The notes under the pieces: model-generated
What the model saw: only the letters and a program-made list of their open reading frames with translations
Databases searched by the model: none
What the model was told of the DNA's origin: nothing
NCBI GenBank assembly: GCA_007118855.1
Contig: SKQU01000205.1
Coordinates: forward strand, 1-42,638
Direction: 5' to 3'
DNA from: Spirochaetaceae bacterium
Lineage (GTDB): Bacteria; Spirochaetota; Spirochaetia; DSM-27196; SLST01
Length of the DNA: 42,638 nucleotides
Shown: one piece after another, positions 15,639 through 31,859 of the stretch
Layout of the letters: every line of letters starts with the position of its first letter
Numbering within the stretch: the stretch's first letter is position 1
Translations under genes and position numbers: made by a program

Positions 15639-16298
15639 TTACAGCTCGCCGTGTTCGAGGAAGCTGTAGTAGCCCCGCGAGCTGAAGATCACGTGGTCGA
15701 GCACCGGTATTCCAAGCAGCTGACCGGCGGAGTGAAGGCGTCGCGTGACTTCCACGTCTTCCGCGCTCGGCTCGAGGCTCCCGCTGGGGTGATTGTGCGC
15801 GAGTATCACCGACGCGGCGCGGTCGGTCAGGGGATCGGCGAACACCTCACGCGGGTGGACGATCGTCCGGTTCACCAGACCAACGGTCACCACGCGCGCG
15901 GCGAGCACCTCGTGCGCTCCGTTGAGACTGAGCGCGAGGAAGCACTCCTGGGGCCGATCCACGAACCGGTCGACGACCGGCAGCACGTCCGACGGTGAAC
16001 GTATCTTGCGCCGCTGCGGCGCGAGCACGCGTCGGCCCAGCTCGAAGGCGGCCGCGAGCGCCGCGACCTTGGCCGGTCCGAGCCCCGGGATCGTGCGCAG
16101 ATCGGCCGAAGCGGGAGCGCCGTTTCGCCGGTCGATGAGCGAGATCACTTCACGCGACACCTTGTCAACCGGACGCCCCGCGACGCCCGTGCCGATCAGC
16201 AGCGACACGAGCTCTTCGTCGCTGAGCACCGCGACCCCGTCCTGCTGGAACCGTTCCCGCGGCATCACCGTGCCGGTAACCGTCTGCAATTGCGTCAC
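15639..16298 (-). CDS. radC: RadC/UPF0758 JAB-domain protein
   Basis: 219 residues. The N-terminal part has MPRERFQQDGVAVLSDEELVSLLIGTG and a helix-hairpin-helix (LRTIPGLGPAKVAALAAAFELGRR). The C-terminal part has the JAMM/MPN metal-site motif HNHPSGSLEPSAEDVE, so metal binding is intact. The start is taken as GTG 16298; an internal ATG eleven codons later (MPRERF) fits the family's usual N-terminus equally well. Despite the name, a DNA-repair role for RadC has not held up well; family members are often linked to mobile DNA or competence. Here it is a lone gene between an exported phosphatase and an HMA-like gene, with no mobile-element genes around. Confidence 0.93.
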   Translation of the reverse strand: MTQLQTVTGTVMPRERFQQDGVAVLSDEELVSLLIGTGVAGRPVDKVSREVISLIDRRNGAPASADLRTIPGLGPAKVAALAAAFELGRRVLAPQRRKIRSPSDVLPVVDRFVDRPQECFLALSLNGAHEVLAARVVTVGLVNRTIVHPREVFADPLTDRAASVILAHNHPSGSLEPSAEDVEVTRRLHSAGQLLGIPVLDHVIFSSRGYYSFLEHGEL

Positions 16299-16380: not shown

Positions 16381-16602
16381 ATGCTCAGACGCAGGAGCTT
16401 CCACTACCTGGTCGACGGTCTGACCGCGGACAAGGCGGCGATTCTCAGACGAAGCCTCGCGATCCTGCCGGAGGTCTACGCGGTCGAGATCAGCATCGGT
16501 CGCGGTACGGTTGAAGTACAGGCCCGACGCGACCTTGCCGATCAGGTGCGCCTCGCCTGTTCGGTCGCGGAGGTACACTATCGCACGCGCGCGAAGCTCT
16601 GA
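16381..16602 (+). CDS. Small HMA-fold-like protein lacking the metal-binding cysteines
   Basis: 73 residues from ATG 16381. A GTG/ATG further upstream is in frame, but the region between holds the promoter. The sequence has the beta-alpha-beta-beta-alpha-beta rhythm of heavy-metal-associated domains: a strand ending YLVDGL, a helix AAILRRSLAILPEVYAV, then EISIGRGTVEVQARR and a second helix DQVRLACSVAEV. The usual GMTCxxC loop between strand 1 and helix 1 is GLTADKAA here, so the copper-type site is absent. The gene starts 12 bases before the stop-start junction with the first large Ig/OmpA gene, so it heads that operon. Function is unknown; a protein-protein adaptor of ferredoxin-like fold is inference. 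Confidence 0.7.
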   Translation: MLRRRSFHYLVDGLTADKAAILRRSLAILPEVYAVEISIGRGTVEVQARRDLADQVRLACSVAEVHYRTRAKL

Positions 16603-16614
16603 AGCGATACGGCC

Positions 16615-19428
16615 ATGAGGCTCGCCCTGATCACCGGGTTCCTGGTGGCCGTCGTGGTCACCGGGTGGCCGGCCGGCCGGCCCGAGACCGGCGATCCGGT
16701 CCGGATCGTCCTGGACGGTCCGGAACGTCGGTATCTCTCGCCCCGGGGGGATGAGTCGCTCCTCGAGATCGCGCCAGGAATCGTGCCGCCGGGGGCAGCG
16801 ATCGAATCGCTCACATTCTCCGTCTACGGCGCGTCGGCCCCCTTCGTCGGAGAGCTCGTCTTCAGGCGCGAGTATCGGCGCGGGCCCTTCGGCATCCGCT
16901 TACCCGCCGCGCTGACGTGGGACGCGACCTTCCGCGGCTCGACGGTCGGAGTCGACGGCGAACCCGTTCCGGACGGCGACTACACGTACGAGGTCGCGGT
17001 CACCGAGCCATCCGGCCGGGTCTCCCGAACGCCGCCGCTGCCGGTCGTCGTTGACACCCGCCCGCCGATGATCGCGTCGGTCTCCGCCGAGTACGACGTG
17101 TTTCACCCCACCGGTGACGGCTCCCGTGACTCGGTGAGGATATTCCAGCGTGGATCGCACGAGCAGCAGTGGATCGGGCGGGTTCGCAACGAGGCGGGAA
17201 TCACGGTCCGCGAGTACGCAACCGTCGACTCCACTCCGCCGGATATCGAGTGGGACGGCAGGACCGACGACGGGGCTCCGGTGCCCGACGGGCGCTACGA
17301 GTACGTCCTCGCGGGTGTCGACCGCGCAGGCAATCGCAGCGAGAGCGATCCCGTTGTGCTGGTCGTCCACACCAGGCTGAACGGCGTGCGGCTCTCTCCC
17401 CATGCGACTGTCGCGCCGGCCGCGGACCGCGGTGAGCCCGGTCCGGTGACCTACGACGTGACGATCTCAGGGCCGTCCGACGTGGTGGCCTGGCAGTTCG
17501 AGCTGACGCAGCCTGCCGCCGACGCGGTGGCGCGTCCGGCCGCGCCTGTCCTCACGCAGGAGGGTGACGGCGCGCCTCCGGCGCAGCTCGTCCTTGACGG
17601 CCGCGACGCCGACGGGAGGGCGCTCGCCGAAGGCGAGTACGAGGCTGCGCTGACCGTGGAGTACCGAAGCGGGGTTCGCGCGCGCTCGGCGGCGGTACCC
17701 TATATCGTGGACCTCACAGCCCCGCACGGCAGGATCGTCGCGCAGACCGTGCCTTCGCCCACCGCCGCGGGGCACGATTTCGTCTTCGGCGGCGCCGCTC
17801 GCGAGGCGGTCGAGTTCTCCGCCCTCGTCTCGGACGACCGCTGGGCGCTGCACGTCGAGCAGGACGGGCGGACCGAGAGGCTCCCGCTCTCGCACCTGGG
17901 GATTTCCGGCGAGGAGCTCTCGTACCGCTGGGACGGGCGCGACCTCGCCGGCAGACCGATGTCCGACGGGCGCTACGTGATTTCGCTCCACGGGATTGAC
18001 GCCGCGGGCAATACGGGCGCGACCAACGAGGTGCGTGTGGTCAAGGACAGCCGCGCCTCATCCGCGACGATCGCCGCACGGCCGGACCGCTTCTCACCGC
18101 TCGCCGACGGCGCGAGCGCTTCGGTGTCACTGACGCCGCGAATCCATCCGTCCGACCGCGTCGCCTCGGCCCGGCTCGAGATCATCGACCGTGACGGGCG
18201 CGTCGTGCGCAGCTGGACCGACGCCCTGCATGACCACCGGTACGAGTGGTCCGGCCGGACCGACGTCGGGGCCACGGCTCCAGACGGCGCCTATACCGCG
18301 CGCCTGGAGGTGCTCCACGCGAACGGCAACCGCGCCGTTGCAACCACCGGCCCGATCGTCCTGGACACCCGGCCCCCGGAGGTCCACCAGCTCGCCGCGC
18401 CGTACCTGGTCGTGCGGCCGACCGGCGACGGGTATCGCGAGACCGTGCGCATTCTGCAGTGGACCTCGGGGGCGCGGTGGACCGCTCGCATCGTCGATTC
18501 GCAGGGGCGGCTGGTCCTTGAGCGACGCTGGGATGACCGCGCCGAGGACTTCACCTGGGACGCTCGCGACGAACGCGGAAGGCTCGTCGGGGACGGCGAG
18601 TACCGGTACGAGCTCCTCGGGCGAGATGAGGTGGGAAACCTCACGCGGGCGGAGCTCGCCCTGGTCGTCGACACGACGTCGTTGCCGGCCCTTCGCCGAC
18701 CTCCGGAGGTCTCGATCTCCGCGGTGCCGCACCCGTTCGTGCCGTCCGTCGACCGTCCGGGTCAGGTGCTCACGCTCTCACTCGACGCGTCCGGCCCCAA
18801 TGAGGCCGCGTCCTGGTCCGTGGAGGTTTCGGACGGCACCGGCCTTGTGGTCAGGACGTTCCGCGGGAGCGGCGCTCCGCCGCCCGAGCTCGCATGGGAC
18901 GGCCGGTACGCCGACGGCCGGTATGTAGAGAGCGCCTCGGCGTACCGCGCGGCGCTCACCGTGACCGACGTGTACGGGAACCGGGGCGAGGCGGCCGTCC
19001 GCATCGAGACGGGCGTGCTCGTGCTGCGCGACGGGCTGCTGCCGCGCGTGATGGTGCCGGGCATCGTCTTTCCTCCGGCCGGCGCCGATCTGCTCGCCGG
19101 TAACGAGGAGGACGTGCGGCGAAATCTGGATGCGTTGCGAAGCCTCTCCGAGGTATTGCGTCGATCCCCGAAACATGAGATCCTTGTAGAAGGGCATGCG
19201 TCGTCGGATGAGTTCGAGGAGCCTCCCGGAGGCGGCGCTGCGGGCCGCGAGCAGCTGGTAGAGCTGTCCGCGATGCGTGCGCAGAGCGTCCGGCGCGCCC
19301 TGATCGTGCTGGGCGTGGAAGCCGGCCGCATCAGTGTGGCGGGCTATGGTGACGCCCGCCCGGTCGTTCCGCCCGAGGACAGGCGGAATAGCTGGAAGAA
19401 TCGTCGCGTGGAGTTTATCTTGAGGTAG
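16615..19428 (+). CDS. Large periplasmic protein: seven FlgD-Ig-like modules plus OmpA domain (paralogue 1)
   Basis: 937 residues. A short hydrophobic N-terminus (LALITGFLVAVVVTGWPAG) is a probable signal peptide. Seven beta-sandwich modules follow, each marked by the FlgD-Ig motif W-D-G-x(3-4)-G ... DGxYxYxL ... AGN. The key tryptophan, or its replacement, is at residues 102, 213, 327 (Leu), 439, 545, 648 and 761, a spacing of 103-114. From about residue 830 there is an OmpA-type peptidoglycan-binding domain: EILVEGHASS, LSAMRAQSVRRAL, ISVAGYGDARPV and NRRVEFILR. The arginine of the peptidoglycan (diaminopimelate) pocket is present; the usual Asp directly after GH(T/A) is replaced, with another Asp two positions on. 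The second gene in the pair is built the same way. Likely a long, peptidoglycan-bound periplasmic spacer or tether; exact role unknown. Confidence 0.85.
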   Translation: MRLALITGFLVAVVVTGWPAGRPETGDPVRIVLDGPERRYLSPRGDESLLEIAPGIVPPGAAIESLTFSVYGASAPFVGELVFRREYRRGPFGIRLPAALTWDATFRGSTVGVDGEPVPDGDYTYEVAVTEPSGRVSRTPPLPVVVDTRPPMIASVSAEYDVFHPTGDGSRDSVRIFQRGSHEQQWIGRVRNEAGITVREYATVDSTPPDIEWDGRTDDGAPVPDGRYEYVLAGVDRAGNRSESDPVVLVVHTRLNGVRLSPHATVAPAADRGEPGPVTYDVTISGPSDVVAWQFELTQPAADAVARPAAPVLTQEGDGAPPAQLVLDGRDADGRALAEGEYEAALTVEYRSGVRARSAAVPYIVDLTAPHGRIVAQTVPSPTAAGHDFVFGGAAREAVEFSALVSDDRWALHVEQDGRTERLPLSHLGISGEELSYRWDGRDLAGRPMSDGRYVISLHGIDAAGNTGATNEVRVVKDSRASSATIAARPDRFSPLADGASASVSLTPRIHPSDRVASARLEIIDRDGRVVRSWTDALHDHRYEWSGRTDVGATAPDGAYTARLEVLHANGNRAVATTGPIVLDTRPPEVHQLAAPYLVVRPTGDGYRETVRILQWTSGARWTARIVDSQGRLVLERRWDDRAEDFTWDARDERGRLVGDGEYRYELLGRDEVGNLTRAELALVVDTTSLPALRRPPEVSISAVPHPFVPSVDRPGQVLTLSLDASGPNEAASWSVEVSDGTGLVVRTFRGSGAPPPELAWDGRYADGRYVESASAYRAALTVTDVYGNRGEAAVRIETGVLVLRDGLLPRVMVPGIVFPPAGADLLAGNEEDVRRNLDALRSLSEVLRRSPKHEILVEGHASSDEFEEPPGGGAAGREQLVELSAMRAQSVRRALIVLGVEAGRISVAGYGDARPVVPPEDRRNSWKNRRVEFILR

Positions 19429-19455
19429 AAGCCGGATACGGGAAGGAAGGACAGT

Positions 19456-22278
19456 ATGCGCAGGATCGTGATAGGAGTCATCGTGGCGCTCGTCGCCTCG
19501 ACCGCGTTTGCCGGCGGTCGTGCCGAGGCGCCCAGGGTTGATGTAGACGCCGAAGACGTTTCCTACATCTCGCCGCAGAGCTCGCCCGGCATACAGGATA
19601 CCCTGATCATCCCGATTTCGGTCGTGGAGATACCACGCAACCGTGTCGTGGTCGCTTACGAGCTCGTTGTCCGGGATGCCCGCGGGAACATCGTCTGGGT
19701 CGAATCCGGCGTCGACGAGACCGAGCGTCCGGGATTCTTCGGCCGGCTGATGGAGGGGCTCGGGCTGCGCGAACGCGAGACCACGGTCCAGATACCTGAG
19801 CGCGTTGAGTGGGACGGGACCTATCAGGGTTCTCCGCTTGCTGCCGACGGGACACCTGTTCCGGAGGGTGAGTACGAGTACGTCCTGACCGTCGTGGACA
19901 ACCGGGAAGACACCGCGACGAGCGAGCCGCGAACGGTTGTCGTGGACAACACGCCGCCCGTTGCCGCCGCGGATGTCGACTATAACGTATTCGAGCCGGG
20001 CGGCCGGCGAGGGACGATCACGCTCACGCAGCAGACCAGCATCGAGGACGAGTGGGTCGGCCGTATCGTCCGCAACGGCGACATCGTGTACGAGGTTATG
20101 TGGGCCGGGCAGGCCGTTGACGTGTTCACCTGGGACGGCCTGAATCTCGCCGGGCTCGAGGTGGAGGACGGTGAGTATGTTTACACCCTGACCGCGACGG
20201 ACCGGGCCGGGAATACCGGGTCGATCGAGCCCATCACCGTGGTCGTAGATACCGCCCCGCGCCCGCTTGACATCGCCGCGTCCACGCCCGCCTTCTCACC
20301 GAACGACAGTGGGGTCAAGGACACGGTCGAGCTCACCTTCGGTCGCCCTTCACTGTTGCGCCTGGAGAGCGCCGTCATCGACGTTACCGACGAAGACGGC
20401 AGACCGGTGGGCAGCGTGGAAGTCGGCGAGCAGATCGCCGAATCCATTGTGCTGACCGGGTATCTCGACGAGGCACGAACCCGGCGAGCCCCGGAGGGGA
20501 CCTATCTGGTCTCGGTCACGGCGACCTACGGAAACGGCGCCGTCTCACAGGCCGGGCCTATCGAGATCACGCTCGACGTCACGCCGCCCGAAGGGTCGAT
20601 CAGCGTCTCCGACACGATCTTCAGCCCCGACGGCAGCGGGCTGAAAGACACCGTGCGCATCGTCCACGAGGTGGACGACGACGCCTATTGGACCGGGTAT
20701 GTTTCCAGGCCGGGCTACGACGTCGTCGAGACGATCCGGTTCGGTCGTGATGTGCCGCCGGTGGTGATCTGGGACGGAACCGGGCTCGACGGCAGTCCCG
20801 TGTCCGACGGAACCTACGCCTACAGCCTCTACGGTGAAGATGAGGCCGGCAACCGGACCCAGACGAACGAGATCCGCGTCACCGTCGATCGTCGCCCCAC
20901 GGACGTCGAGCTTCGGGTCAGCCGCGAGTATTTCGCTCCCGGCAGCGGAGAGAAGGGCGATTCGGTCGTCGTGACGCCCGTACTCTCGGTTCCTGATGGA
21001 ATCGCCGAGTTCTCCTTCCGCGTCATGGACGGATCGGGGAACGAGGTGTTCTCCGGTCGGGGAGCAGGGCCGCTTCCGCGGCAGATCGTGTGGGACGGCC
21101 GTGATCCCGACGGTGAGATCCTTCCGGAGGGCGAATACGTCGGAGTGCTCGATCTCATCTACGAGAAGGGCAACCGTCCGCGTGCGCTCACGCCCGTCGT
21201 GACTATCGACCAGACGGTACCGCAGGTCTCTCTGCGGGCCTCCACGTCCCGGATTGCACCCGAAGTCCAGGACGCGCCGCAGACCGTCTCATTCATCCCC
21301 TTCGTCCATCCGGTCGACCAGATCGTCCGGTTCACCGGACAGATTCAGTCGCTCGACGGCCGGGTCGTCCGTGAGGTGACCGGCACGCGACCGGTCGGCA
21401 CCGCCTATTGGGACGGGACGACCCGCACCGGGCAGCTCGCCGCCGACGGGACGTACGTGGGAATCCTCGAGGTCGAGCACCGTAATGGAATCGTGCGGCG
21501 CGCGCAGAGCGGCACGATCGCGCTCAGCACCGTCGACTACGTGGGGCCGCCCCCGGTCGCGCTGCGGCTGAACCCGCAGACCTTCGCTCCGGACGGCGAC
21601 GGCGTTCGGGACACCGTGATGGTGACCCTCGCGATTGGTGACGGGCGCCCCATTGCCGAATGGACGATCACGGTACGGGCGCCGGACGGCTCGGTGTTCT
21701 TCGAGTACACCGGTGAGGGTGATCCGGTTCGCTCCTTCGCGTGGGACGGCATGAACGACGCCGGCGATCGCGTACGCATGGCGAGCGACTATGACGTCGA
21801 GTACGAGGTGGTCGACGCGCAGGGCAATGTCGCGACCGGTAGCGAGGTGCTGACCGTCGACATCCTGACGGTGGAGCGCTACGGCATGCGCAAGATCGAT
21901 CTGCCGGACATCATCTTCGAGGGCTTCACGACGAGATATCTCAACTGGAACAAGGAGCTCTCCGAGCAGAACGTCGTCGTGCTCAACCAGATCGCCGACG
22001 CCCTGCAGAAGTTCCCCCACTACCGCGTCGAGCTCCACGGTCATGCAGTGAGCGTGCTCTACTACGATGCCGAGCTCTCCGATCTCGAGCACGAGCAGAC
22101 GCTGCTGCCGCTGAGTGAGGGGCGCGCGAGGACGATTCGCGACGCGATGGCGAACCGCGGCCTGAACACCGACCGCTTCTCGATCGAGTGGTGGGGCAAG
22201 CTGCGGCCGCTCGTACCGTTCAGCGATCTCGACGAGCGGTACATCAACCGCCGCGTGGAGTTCTACATCGAGCGATAG
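19456..22278 (+). CDS. Large periplasmic protein: seven FlgD-Ig-like modules plus OmpA domain (paralogue 2)
   Basis: 940 residues, 27 bases after paralogue 1 with a good ribosome site (AAGGAAGGA). The signal peptide is clear: IVIGVIVALVASTAFA then GGRAEA. Module tryptophans or their equivalents are at residues 119, 226, about 334 (Thr, degenerate), 439, 546, 652 and 763, matching paralogue 1 almost residue for residue from module 4 on. Several modules start with F(S/A)P(N/D)G(S/D)G..DT, the usual opening of cell-surface Ig modules. The OmpA domain (about 830-940) reads RVELHGHAVSVLYYDAEL, LSEGRARTIRDAM, FSIEWWGKLRPLVPF and NRRVEFYIER. The pocket arginine is kept but the Asp after GHA is Val/Ser, so peptidoglycan binding may be weakened. 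A hairpin follows at 22294-22325. Confidence 0.85.
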   Translation: MRRIVIGVIVALVASTAFAGGRAEAPRVDVDAEDVSYISPQSSPGIQDTLIIPISVVEIPRNRVVVAYELVVRDARGNIVWVESGVDETERPGFFGRLMEGLGLRERETTVQIPERVEWDGTYQGSPLAADGTPVPEGEYEYVLTVVDNREDTATSEPRTVVVDNTPPVAAADVDYNVFEPGGRRGTITLTQQTSIEDEWVGRIVRNGDIVYEVMWAGQAVDVFTWDGLNLAGLEVEDGEYVYTLTATDRAGNTGSIEPITVVVDTAPRPLDIAASTPAFSPNDSGVKDTVELTFGRPSLLRLESAVIDVTDEDGRPVGSVEVGEQIAESIVLTGYLDEARTRRAPEGTYLVSVTATYGNGAVSQAGPIEITLDVTPPEGSISVSDTIFSPDGSGLKDTVRIVHEVDDDAYWTGYVSRPGYDVVETIRFGRDVPPVVIWDGTGLDGSPVSDGTYAYSLYGEDEAGNRTQTNEIRVTVDRRPTDVELRVSREYFAPGSGEKGDSVVVTPVLSVPDGIAEFSFRVMDGSGNEVFSGRGAGPLPRQIVWDGRDPDGEILPEGEYVGVLDLIYEKGNRPRALTPVVTIDQTVPQVSLRASTSRIAPEVQDAPQTVSFIPFVHPVDQIVRFTGQIQSLDGRVVREVTGTRPVGTAYWDGTTRTGQLAADGTYVGILEVEHRNGIVRRAQSGTIALSTVDYVGPPPVALRLNPQTFAPDGDGVRDTVMVTLAIGDGRPIAEWTITVRAPDGSVFFEYTGEGDPVRSFAWDGMNDAGDRVRMASDYDVEYEVVDAQGNVATGSEVLTVDILTVERYGMRKIDLPDIIFEGFTTRYLNWNKELSEQNVVVLNQIADALQKFPHYRVELHGHAVSVLYYDAELSDLEHEQTLLPLSEGRARTIRDAMANRGLNTDRFSIEWWGKLRPLVPFSDLDERYINRRVEFYIER

Positions 22279-22454: not shown

Positions 22455-22958
22455 ATGTCCAAGGCACACAGGGGTCGACCCCTGAAGGATGAGACGCCGC
22501 GATCGGGACGCGGCACATGCCCGGTTACCGGCCGGAGCGGCGTCAAGCTGCTCTACGAAGCCGAAGTCGACGGCACGAAGATGATGGTCAGCAAGGCGGG
22601 CAAAGCGACACTCGCGAACGCGAAGAAGCGCCAGGAGAAGACGACCCGCAAGGCGGCCGCGGTCGAGGCGGCGAAGGCGGCCGAGCAGGCACGCAAGGCC
22701 GAGGCTGCCGTTGCGGCGAAGGCTGCGCGCGAAGCCGAGGAGGCGGCCCGCAAGGCCGAAGAGGCCGCGAAGGCCGAAGCGGAAGCTGAAGCCGAGACAC
22801 CGGCCGCGGAGGCCGAGGCACCGGCCGCGGAGGCCGACACACCGGCCGCGGAGGCCGAGACACCGGCCGCGGAGGCCGAGACACCGGCCGCGGAAGAACC
22901 GGCCGCGGAGGCCGAGGCATCCGCCGCCGAGACCGAGGCGGATGAGACCGGGAAGTAG
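22455..22958 (+). CDS. Basic-head, Ala/Glu-rich-tail protein, possibly a degenerate zinc-ribbon family member
   Basis: 167 residues with its own promoter and a strong ribosome site. Residues 1-55 are compact and basic: MSKAHRGRPLKDETPRSGRG, then TCPVTGRSGVKLLYEAEV and MMVSKAGKATLANAKKR. The layout CPxx(T)GR ... VSKAGK resembles a treble-clef or zinc-ribbon small protein in which three of four cysteines have been lost (only Cys22 remains); that is my inference. Residues of about 60-110 form an Ala/Lys/Glu-rich helix likely to be a long coiled or single alpha-helix. Residues from 115 are acidic repeats of E-T-P-A-A-E-A, encoded by a 21-bp minisatellite. No signal peptide, so cytoplasmic. Nucleic-acid binding by the basic head is a guess. 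The long open frames on the other strand here are only by-products of the repeat. Confidence 0.8.
   Translation: MSKAHRGRPLKDETPRSGRGTCPVTGRSGVKLLYEAEVDGTKMMVSKAGKATLANAKKRQEKTTRKAAAVEAAKAAEQARKAEAAVAAKAAREAEEAARKAEEAAKAEAEAEAETPAAEAEAPAAEADTPAAEAETPAAEAETPAAEEPAAEAEASAAETEADETGK
22797..22895 (+). repeat. 21-bp coding minisatellite, about 4.7 copies
   Basis: The unit ACACCGGCCGCGGAGGCCGAG is repeated at 22797, 22818, 22839, 22860 and 22881 (last copy partial), with one or two substitutions. It encodes T-P-A-A-E-A-E, so changes in copy number keep the frame. Confidence 0.9.
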
Positions 22959-28676: not shown

Positions 28677-29207
28677 TTGGAGATGCAAGGTTTCGTCAGT
28701 GCAGACATTTTCGAGCGCGTGTACGAGCACGTATACCCCATCATCATCCGCATCGCGTACCGGATCACCGGTCGGGAAGACGTGGCTGAGGAGCTATGCC
28801 AGGAAGCGTTCATCAAGTACTACGAGCGGATCGACTCGTTTCCGGATACGGATCAGGCAAAGTACTGGCTGATCAGGGTTGCAAAGAATCTCGCGCTGAA
28901 CTCCGCGAAGCGGTCGGGGCGGGAGCGCAGAGCGTACGAACGCGCCTACCATGAGCCGTCGCGGCTCCTCCGTACCGGCGAGGACGAAGTGATCCGCAAG
29001 GAGCAGGAGGCGGAGGTACAGGCGGCTCTTCGACTGCTGCCGCAGAAGATGAGGACGGTGTTGATACTCAAGGAGTACGGACAGCTGAACTACCGCGAGA
29101 TCGGCGCGATCCTCGGCATTACGGAAGGGAACGTCAAAGTCCGGGTGTTCCGGGCGCGCGAGCACTTGCTGGATCTGCTCAAGGAGGGCGATGTCCATGC
29201 GTCCTGA
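28677..29207 (+). CDS. ECF (RpoE-type) RNA polymerase sigma factor
   Basis: 176 residues. Region 2: IIIRIAYRITGREDVAEELCQEAFIKYYERI, which binds core and the -10 element. Region 4: LPQKMRTVLILKEYGQLNYREIGAILGITEGNVKVRVFRARE, the -35 helix-turn-helix. There is only sigma-2 and sigma-4, as in ECF factors. The TTG start at 28677 is chosen because AGGTGG (28665-28670) is six bases upstream; the ATG two codons later has GGAG touching it and is less likely. The reading frame overlaps the next gene, a membrane anti-sigma candidate, so production is coupled. Targets are unknown; the classical ECF -35 AAC motif is not evident in front of this gene. Confidence 0.93.
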   Translation: MEMQGFVSADIFERVYEHVYPIIIRIAYRITGREDVAEELCQEAFIKYYERIDSFPDTDQAKYWLIRVAKNLALNSAKRSGRERRAYERAYHEPSRLLRTGEDEVIRKEQEAEVQAALRLLPQKMRTVLILKEYGQLNYREIGAILGITEGNVKVRVFRAREHLLDLLKEGDVHAS

Positions 29208-29742
29208 TGCGAGAATTCTGTCCGCCTATCTCGACGGTGAGGTGCCCCAGCGCTTCGCCACGGAGATCGAGGCTTCGCTGCAACGCGATCCTGGCCTGCG
29301 CGCGGAGTACGAAGCGCTTGTAGCGCTGCGCGCGCGTCTGAACGTCGACGTTCCGTTCGATATCGCCGAGAGCTCGCGGCGGAGCTGGACCGAGATTGTC
29401 CGCAGGATACCCGATCGCAGGAAGGATCTCTGGCACCGGCGGGTTGCCGTGCCGCTGCCGCTCTTTGCCGCCGCCGCCGCGATAGTCCTTGTCCTCGGCG
29501 GGGCCTTGCTCTGGATGCAGCTTGCTCAGCCCGACGGCACGACACCCGCAATCGCACGGGGAGGCGACATTGATCTCACGATCAGCGTGGGCGGTGAGGA
29601 GATGGAGCGCCTGTTGCAGTGGCTGGTCGACAAGAATATGCTGGGGGAAGTCAACATCCAGCTGCCTGAGCAGCGATTCCAGATCGTTGGAGAGCCGGTG
29701 TTCGTGAGGCCGGCTCAGTACGAGGGGGGACGGTTGAGATGA
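29197..29742 (+). CDS. Probable membrane anti-sigma factor without zinc motif
   Basis: 181 residues from ATG 29197, nine bases after AAGGAGG; an ATG two codons earlier is too close to that site. The N-terminal 45 residues (RILSAYLDGEVPQRFATEIEASLQ) match the helical start of anti-sigma domains, but the HxxxCxxC zinc motif is absent. One membrane helix lies at about 80-108 (VAVPLPLFAAAAAIVLVLGGALLW). The outer part (ISVGGEEMERLLQWLVDKNML ... QRFQIVGEPVFV) would face the periplasm. Overlap with the sigma gene and with the following secreted protein, plus topology, make it the sigma's antagonist; direct evidence is lacking. Confidence 0.82.
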   Translation: MRPDARILSAYLDGEVPQRFATEIEASLQRDPGLRAEYEALVALRARLNVDVPFDIAESSRRSWTEIVRRIPDRRKDLWHRRVAVPLPLFAAAAAIVLVLGGALLWMQLAQPDGTTPAIARGGDIDLTISVGGEEMERLLQWLVDKNMLGEVNIQLPEQRFQIVGEPVFVRPAQYEGGRLR

Positions 29743-30239
29743 GGCGGAACCGCACGGCTATCGTCGCGTGCCTCTTCCTCGCTCTGAGCGTTTCACCGCT
29801 CCGGGCGGTAGAGCTCGACGACATCCTGCGTGCGCTGCTCGACCAGGCGCTCACGGTGAGAATCACCGCCCGCGTCGTGGAGAACGGACGGGTGACCGTT
29901 CAGAGCTATGAGCTGACGAGAGTGACGATATCCGGGCGGGCGGTCCGACTGCGGCTCGAGGGCGGGAACCTGATCGTCATTGCCGAGTTCACGCCCTACG
30001 AGGCCGACGACGGCATCCTCCTCGTGGCCGAGGGTAGAATCGTCCTTCGGACCCCGGAGGATGACGAGGTGAAGTACATGACGTCTCTGCGCAGCATCCC
30101 GCTCGCCATAGGTGAACGCGTCGTATTCTACCCGCTCGGGCGCACGACCTTCGACGTCGAGGCGGATGGAGACCACGGCAATCCGCTGAACATCGAGCTC
30201 GAGGTGGAAGTAACCCCCTACCAGTCTCCCCAAGGATAG
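29739..30239 (+). CDS. Secreted beta-rich protein of the ECF operon
   Basis: 166 residues. Signal peptide: IVACLFLALSVSPLRA. The mature chain is rich in short strands (VRITARVVENGRVTVQSYEL, RAVRLRLEGGNLIVIAEF, VVFYPLGRTTFDVE, IELEVEVTPY). No known domain is recognised. The ATG overlaps the stop of the anti-sigma gene (ATGA), and the next gene follows nine bases later. Because it is locked between the anti-sigma and the IPT/transglutaminase protein, a part in envelope sensing by this system is likely, but its activity is unknown. Confidence 0.8.
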   Translation: MRRNRTAIVACLFLALSVSPLRAVELDDILRALLDQALTVRITARVVENGRVTVQSYELTRVTISGRAVRLRLEGGNLIVIAEFTPYEADDGILLVAEGRIVLRTPEDDEVKYMTSLRSIPLAIGERVVFYPLGRTTFDVEADGDHGNPLNIELEVEVTPYQSPQG

Positions 30240-30248
30240 CCTGCCCGC

Positions 30249-31859
30249 ATGTCCCGCATCGCCGGTCGCCACTCGCTGATCCCGATTCTCATCCTCGTCG
30301 TAGCTCTTGCCGCGCTCGTGGTGCTCGTCGTACTCGTGAGCCGGGAGCCGGTGATCGAGACCCTGGAGCCGACCGTGCTCTCACCGGGCGATGAGGTCAC
30401 GATCAGGGGGCGCCACTTCGGCACCGCCCCGGCGGTCATCGTGGGCAGCCAGACCGTCCCGACCTCCGCGATCGTGACCTCGAGCAGCCGGGAGATCCGC
30501 TTCACCGCCCCCGGAAACGTGACTTCCGGACTGCTCTACGTCGTGTCTGATCGCGGCCGCAGCGATGGGCAGCTCCTTCAGGTCCGGGAGACGATTCCCC
30601 GCACCGGATTCACGGGCGAAGGGCCGGGGTCGCCGGTCATCACCGGCATCGACGCCTCGGAGCTGGAGATCGGCGGGCTGGTCACGCTCAGCGGGGCCAA
30701 CTTCGGTCGAACCAGGCACGGCTCGCATGTCGTCTTCCCCATGCTCCAAGGGCTGCGCTGCCAGGCATGCGGGGACGAGATCAGTTACGCGTTCTGGAGT
30801 GACTCGCGGATCGTCGCCCGGGTACCGGAGGGGGCCGTATCCGGCTTCCTCTCGGTTGCGACCCCCTGGGGCTCGAGCAATCCGCTTCGCGTGATCGTAG
30901 GGCGGACCGCCGGTGGCATCGTCGCCGAGGACCCGCTTGAGATCGCCCTGCACTACGGTGCGCGCATCAGTGAGGTCCAACTGCGTTCCGCGTCGAACCC
31001 TGACCAGCCTGGCGCGAAGGATGTCGTCGTGCGGTTGCCGTCCGTGCAGGTGTCGGCGTCTCAACGGGCCGTACGCTACCTTGGAGAACCCCCGGGTCCA
31101 CTGCGCTTCGAACGGATCGACGCGGGATTCGAGCGGACGCTCGCGCGCACCGTCATCGTCCGGCGCTACGCCGTTCGGACCGAAATCGACACCGCACGCG
31201 TGGCGGCTGCATACGAGAATCAGACCGGCTTCCATGCATACTATACGAAGCCGCTGCCGGGCCTGCCGGTCTCCGATCCGGATATCCGGCAGATCGCCGC
31301 GCGCCTCCGAACGAACCGGACGAATCCGTACCGGATCGCCGAGGCGGCGTACGCCTACACGGTGGACAACCTCGCGTACGCGCTCGGGCTATCCGACCGA
31401 TCACCGCTTGCCGGGCTCGAATCCGGGTACGGCGACAGTTATACCTATGCGCTTCTTTTCGTTACACTCGCCCGCGCAGCCGGAGTGCCGGCCCGCCCGG
31501 TGGGAGGCGTGCTCCTGACCGACGAAGGTAGCTCGTATCCGCACTTCTGGGCGGAGTTCTTTATCACCGGCATCGGCTGGGTGCCGGTCGACCCGGCGCT
31601 CGGTGACGGGGCCTTTCCGGCCGCCTTTCCGGTTCCGGCCGATGCACGGGCCTATTACTTCGGCAGTCTGGACAACCGCCGGGTGGCGTTTCACTACGGG
31701 TTCGACACGCGACAGCGAAGTCTTCTCGACGGTGTCCGGATTGCACCGCATGAGGCGTACACGCTGCAGCTGTCGTACGCGGAGGGCGGCTCCGGCATCG
31801 AGTCGTTTCGGCTCGGCTGGCCGGTGCCCCGGGTGATCGGCATGTTCGGTCTGGATTGA
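30249..31859 (+). CDS. IPT/TIG plus transglutaminase-fold protein with Cys-to-Ser active site
   Basis: 536 residues. One N-terminal membrane helix (about 11-31) anchors a periplasmic chain. Residues of about 34-115 and 128-215 are two IPT/TIG Ig-like domains (SPGDEVTIRGRHFG; IGGLVTLSGANFGRTR). Residues of about 350-460 look like a transglutaminase core: RIAEAAYAYTVDNLAYA, GDSYTYALLFVTLARAAGVPARPVGG and HFWAEFFITGIGWVPVDPALG. In that family the residue before xxYA is the catalytic cysteine; here it is Ser397, while the histidine (His432) and aspartate (Asp448) are kept. It is therefore a pseudo-enzyme or a serine-based variant. As last gene of the ECF unit it is the probable outer sensor or effector. 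glyA follows with its own promoter. Confidence 0.85.
   Translation: MSRIAGRHSLIPILILVVALAALVVLVVLVSREPVIETLEPTVLSPGDEVTIRGRHFGTAPAVIVGSQTVPTSAIVTSSSREIRFTAPGNVTSGLLYVVSDRGRSDGQLLQVRETIPRTGFTGEGPGSPVITGIDASELEIGGLVTLSGANFGRTRHGSHVVFPMLQGLRCQACGDEISYAFWSDSRIVARVPEGAVSGFLSVATPWGSSNPLRVIVGRTAGGIVAEDPLEIALHYGARISEVQLRSASNPDQPGAKDVVVRLPSVQVSASQRAVRYLGEPPGPLRFERIDAGFERTLARTVIVRRYAVRTEIDTARVAAAYENQTGFHAYYTKPLPGLPVSDPDIRQIAARLRTNRTNPYRIAEAAYAYTVDNLAYALGLSDRSPLAGLESGYGDSYTYALLFVTLARAAGVPARPVGGVLLTDEGSSYPHFWAEFFITGIGWVPVDPALGDGAFPAAFPVPADARAYYFGSLDNRRVAFHYGFDTRQRSLLDGVRIAPHEAYTLQLSYAEGGSGIESFRLGWPVPRVIGMFGLD

Follow-up and report, generated by a model that had tools for sequence, protein, structure and literature searches.

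Canonical OmpA domains bind peptidoglycan through three residues, an Asp, an Asn and an Arg, which are found in the motif TD(x)7NxxLSxxRA (PMC5104382). Most spirochaetes have ornithine instead of DAP in the wall, and Tp0624, in which loss of the Asp has been reported, did not bind DAP (PMC5104382). Lsa66 of Leptospira has been shown to bind laminin, fibronectin and plasminogen in vitro, and immunofluorescence revealed the protein on live cells (PMC3130794). Here, we analysed a window of 42,638 nucleotides from a Spirochaetaceae bacterium (contig SKQU01000205.1), in which two adjacent genes encode proteins with serial Ig modules and an OmpA tail, hereafter A and B. The periplasm of spirochaetes is wide and holds the flagella, and the attachment of the outer membrane to the wall is poorly known there. 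The family of Ig-rod and OmpA proteins to which A and B belong, with and without a barrel, provides obvious candidates for this attachment.

Results

Protein A (937 aa; positions 16615..19428 of the window) and protein B (940 aa; 19456..22278) are encoded in tandem on the forward strand and are separated by a gap of 27 nt. Both start with a type I-like signal peptide, continue with seven FlgD-type Ig modules and end with an OmpA domain. A Shine-Dalgarno-like GGGAAGGAAGG (GGAAGG; 19440..19450, forward strand) precedes the ATG of B, and a search for a promoter-like site ahead of A found none. Directly upstream of A, ending 12 nt before it, lies an ORF of 73 aa (16381..16602, forward strand). Its place is conserved in family f1, with 46-75% identity, and elsewhere in the order the ORF is found at other loci. 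The divergent neighbour radC (15639..16298, reverse strand) is a landmark of the A locus in several families across the order. On the other side of the pair, a small protein (22455-22958, forward strand) has an Ala/Glu/Pro-rich and repetitive C-terminal half, with AEAETPAAE repeats and no Pfam match. Farther downstream (28677-31856, forward strand), an ECF-type sigma factor is followed by two unassigned small proteins and then by a transglutaminase-like protein containing a TIG domain.

A, B and their congeners carry a signal peptide and have no lipobox Cys. The cleavage region in congeners reads ARA/GGRAE or AFA/GGRAE, the latter being the form in B. Extra N-terminal domains in the A frames of two congeners (L051, L052) were considered and dropped. 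The signal peptide begins at the aligned start, so that the long N-terminal extensions reflect an open frame that continues 5' of the real start site and not additional domains. The description of A and B as giant proteins does not hold up either, as relatives in the same genome have frames of up to 1354 aa. Within the genus, both genes are under purifying selection, with dN/dS of about 0.25 for A and 0.10 for B. A evolves faster (68-71% identity) and B more slowly (88-89%), with radC (88%) serving as the local yardstick.

The two proteins match FlgD_ig (PF13860) with 118.4 bits for A and 82.3 bits for B, above the Pfam cut-off of 27. The C-terminal OmpA domain (PF00691) scores 43.8 bits in A and 29.7 bits in B, above the cut-off of 27.2. 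An HMM built from modules of the family recovers exactly seven copies per protein, so that the predicted architecture of seven Ig modules and an OmpA tail is borne out. The first module starts at residue 36 in A and 26 in B. All modules lie on the forward strand. In A, they span 16720..17073 (module 1, W102), 17065..17376 (module 2, W213), 17410..17724 (module 3, with Leu327 for Trp), 17797..18057 (module 4, W439), 18061..18384 (module 5, W545), 18391..18681 (module 6, W648) and 18700..18996 (module 7, W761), and the OmpA domain follows at 19132..19386. In B, the corresponding spans are 19531..19959 (module 1, W119), 19951..20259 (module 2, W226), 20257..20592 (module 3, with Leu333 for Trp), 20581..20907 (module 4, W439), 20896..21228 (module 5, W546), 21220..21534 (module 6, W652) and 21547..21861 (module 7, W763), with the OmpA domain at 21955..22248. 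The 12 Trp positions are those of the original prediction, which placed the module-3 site of B one residue off, at 334. Module 3 is also the only module without the Trp in both proteins, as had been claimed, but this is not particular to the pair. Nearly all relatives, six-module paralogues included, have F, L, V or Y at the site, and W is found only in family f3. The loss of the module-3 Trp thus predates the A/B pair.

Structure prediction with AlphaFold2, run on a six-sequence alignment, returned serial beta-sandwich modules followed by an alpha/beta OmpA tail for both proteins. The anticipated all-beta fold of the modules was therefore recovered. Mean pLDDT was 73.5 for A and 68.8 for B, and pTM was 0.43 and 0.31, respectively. 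The models hence support the fold class of A and B and not their overall shape, since at such modest confidence a rod shape is not established by the models. Foldseek searches with the full-length models matched generic multi-sandwich proteins (complement C3/C5, alpha-2-macroglobulin), and no specific relative emerged from them.

A and B align end to end with 28% identity (E 8e-85). The collinearity of the modules was assessed with per-module orthologue profiles, using the single-copy genes of other families as a bridge. For modules 1-5 and 7, the best matches of A or B to the single-copy genes fall mostly on the diagonal, although modules that resemble each other tie (2 with 4, 3 with 5). Module 6 is not equivalent in the two proteins. 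The profile score between A6 and B6 is 38, compared to 141 between A6 and B2 and 90 between A5 and B6. A6 is similar to module 2 and to the sixth module in family f8, and B6 is similar to module 5. A plain alignment of A and B modules had hinted at wider shuffling (A3-B5, A5-B6, A6-B2). This was dropped, as the orthologue profiles leave only module 6 clearly out of order. The even spacing of the Trp residues carries little information, because modules have a length of about 107 aa throughout the family (median 107; 5-95% of modules at 103-122). The profiles thus point to whole-gene descent for most of the length, with one module turned over. The original view of whole-gene duplicates with seven collinear modules, rather than products of module shuffling, is right in the main and fails for module 6. 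Whether A and B are sisters is also doubtful.

The OmpA domains of A and B deviate from the canonical DAP-binding motif. Motif alignment places GHAS in A and GHAV in B, with the canonical Asp lost, a Leu replacing the Asn, the Arg kept and a longer loop. The same change was found throughout the class. In counts that include close relatives, so that rows are not independent events, the 64 family members from Spirochaetia retain the Asp in none, the Asn in none and the Arg in all. Between the Asp and Asn sites, these members have a longer stretch, with a median of 13-18 residues instead of 8. In contrast, the 24 barrel-type members from other classes keep the Asp in 22 cases, and the Asn and the Arg in all 24. 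Seven Lsa66-like proteins have lost the Asp and kept the Asn. The Arg is retained by every family member examined (95/95). The MotB of the same genome (L131, C140) keeps a canonical GHTDD...N...R motif, and three other OmpA-domain proteins encoded there have Ala for Asp. Wall chemistry alone hence does not explain the loss, which is not simply an adaptation common to every wall-binding protein.

Homologues are widespread in the phylum. A search with the Lsa66 model found matches in 269 of 296 Spirochaetota genomes. Many of the weakest, in the Borrelia-like f12 and in f29 (E about 1e-3 to 1e-12), score no higher than an isolated OmpA domain would. Members across Spirochaetota carry 4 to 10 or more Ig modules. 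Apart from A and B, the same genome encodes proteins of six (C401), eight (C363) and at least seven modules (C159, a truncated frame), as well as a fragment on C81. Single-copy orthologues across the order mostly have seven modules, with eight in f2, and six or eight in some members of f7 and f8.

About 310 residues precede the first module in C363, C159, several relatives from the order and the four-module proteins of other classes. Barrel-type N-termini of 300-350 aa were recognized in L043, L048, L110, L111, L096 and L098, two of which come from the genome studied here. Four of eight barrel-type N-termini match PorV_fam (PorV/PorQ), with a best E of 3e-9. The N-termini of Spirochaetales and those of other classes align with each other (hhalign 98.8%, E 9e-17). 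The domain contains an NPA motif, which has been described for the hatch of FadL (PMC8407342). Judging by these likenesses, the barrel members can be read as OmpA proteins with a long linker of Ig modules, joining the outer membrane and the wall. The N-terminal barrel domain of about 310 aa is absent from A and B, and no outer-membrane anchor was seen in either protein. We found no named family for the whole barrel-Ig(4-10)-OmpA architecture, and a literature search combining FlgD Ig-like and OmpA returned nothing.

Orthologues of A were detected in eight families of the order (f1-f8), and outside f1 a single gene is the counterpart of both proteins. The orthologue of A lies beside radC in f1, f3, f4 and f7. 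The A-B tandem was found in six genomes of f1, with B always next to A. The orthologue pair was hence seen in f1 only. Trees of the C-terminal part, as well as of the full length without module 6, place A inside the orthologue group and B outside.

Discussion

The distribution of the two genes suggests that A would be the order-wide orthologue in its ancestral place and B an adjacent paralogue kept only in f1. B could be either an old paralogue lost elsewhere or a fast-evolving local duplicate. Under local duplication, B arose from A in tandem within f1 and then evolved fast, and its deep position in the trees reflects long-branch attraction. We consider this nearly evenly balanced, leaning slightly against, and the question is independent of that of function. 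The confinement of B to f1, always beside A, and its long stem branch (0.8-1.2) are expected from such a history. The topology tests give a divided answer. Sister status of A and B is rejected when an outgroup is included (p-AU 3.5e-6) and left undecided when it is omitted (p-AU 0.057), so that the case for a simple duplicate pair is not made. The different type of module 6 in B and its now slower evolution within the genus further argue against a local duplication.

We suggest that A and B are periplasmic, wall-associated spacers or tethers, an interpretation that we hold tentatively as just short of probable. The signal peptides without lipobox point to secreted, soluble proteins, which would form rods of seven FlgD-type Ig modules in the periplasm. 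The C-terminal OmpA domain would associate with the cell wall, and each rod might act as a wall-attached spacer or tether reaching across the wide spirochaete periplasm to a partner. A and B would thus represent the barrel-less branch of the family, and the barrel-bearing members would be very long OmpA proteins linking the outer membrane to the wall. With two of the three canonical ligand residues lost, peptidoglycan binding by A and B cannot be assumed. Wall binding is plausible at most. A broader proposal is that the Spirochaetia have Ig-rod tethers of variable length, with or without a barrel, in which the OmpA site was rebuilt for a ligand other than meso-DAP, and that the barrel-bearing relatives of other classes keep the DAP-type site. 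We find this possible but on the whole doubtful.

Other functions could be drawn from the same architecture. A long Ig rod with a wall-binding type of tail in the periplasm was the core of the original prediction and agrees with the domain, signal-peptide and fold evidence. Its extension to a ruler or distance sensor appears improbable. In that view, the length of seven modules (25-30 nm) would fit the distance from peptidoglycan to another layer and also determine it. Length is conserved in much of the orthologue group, since A, B and the majority of single-copy orthologues in the order have seven modules. Yet, one genome holds paralogues of 6, 7, 7, 8 and at least 7 modules, orthologues of A depart from seven in f2 and in some of f7 and f8, and the family as a whole spans 4 to 10 or more. 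Such variation within a genome and across the family speaks against a rod whose length is dictated by the periplasm. A role as an accessory of the periplasmic flagella, with the rods guiding, spacing or sheathing the endoflagella, is unlikely as well. The modules take their name from FlgD, the hook-cap protein, but FlgD_ig domains are present in many proteins unrelated to flagella. Of the 296 genomes, 18 lack FliG, and 16 of these make up the whole sample of f17, a Spirochaetia family which we liken to Sphaerochaetaceae and in which the Ig-rod family is absent from all 16 genomes too. As f17 is a single clade and thus one event, co-occurrence with flagella was set aside as an uninformative clue to function. 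Furthermore, f12, presumably akin to Borreliaceae, and f29 have FliG and only weak, OmpA-level family matches, so that flagella do not need the rods.

The nearest match among named proteins raises the idea of a surface adhesin like Lsa66, with Ig modules binding extracellular proteins. The best NCBIfam model for both A and B is indeed the Lsa66 equivalog NF053608 (174.3 and 193.2 bits, respectively). However, both scores remain far below the cut-off of 700 bits, and the family is widespread in the phylum, with no tie to host-associated lineages that the group codes would reveal. Among relatives that carry a name, CSSed16 Spirochaetales MAGs are the nearest, and we take these to be free-living inhabitants of soda-lake sediment. 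An adhesin function for A and B hence seems decidedly remote, and we retain the spacer or tether as the preferred reading.

A and B are ordinary members of a widespread and little-studied spirochaete family, here in a presumed soda-lake spirochaete, and the interest of the pair itself is modest. Two details are worth keeping, the barrel-bearing relatives and the wall-binding site that has changed throughout the class. The latter offers a direct binding test.

Comparison with known systems

Several described proteins share parts of the architecture of A and B. The FlgD hook cap has the same type of Ig module (PF13860). Its N-terminal domain has no Pfam match in A or B, which have many modules and an OmpA tail instead. 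Like A and B, Tp0624 of Treponema pallidum is a spirochaete protein whose OmpA domain lacks the DAP-binding Asp and retains the Arg (PMC5104382). Its N-terminal domains are not Ig modules though, and A and B additionally lose the Asn and have a longer loop. The two N-terminal domains characteristic of the Tp0624 family are lacking in A and B, whose N-terminal parts are Ig modules, and PDB sequence searches with A and B did not list Tp0624. E. coli OmpA and Pal likewise direct a C-terminal OmpA-type domain at the wall. A and B differ by having no barrel or lipid anchor, by changed ligand residues and by the long Ig rod. Lsa66 (LIC10258) also combines Ig modules of this family with a subsequent OmpA domain and has no barrel. 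Lsa66 is shorter, at about 580 aa and 4 modules compared to the seven of A and B, and the Lsa66-like relatives examined keep the Asn and have K or S for the Asp, whereas A and B lose both. The barrel-Ig(4-10)-OmpA proteins of Spirochaetota differ from A and B by their barrel, and those of other classes by the retained Asn and, mostly, Asp. They share homologous Ig modules and the OmpA tail with A and B, and paralogues of this kind are encoded in the same genome.
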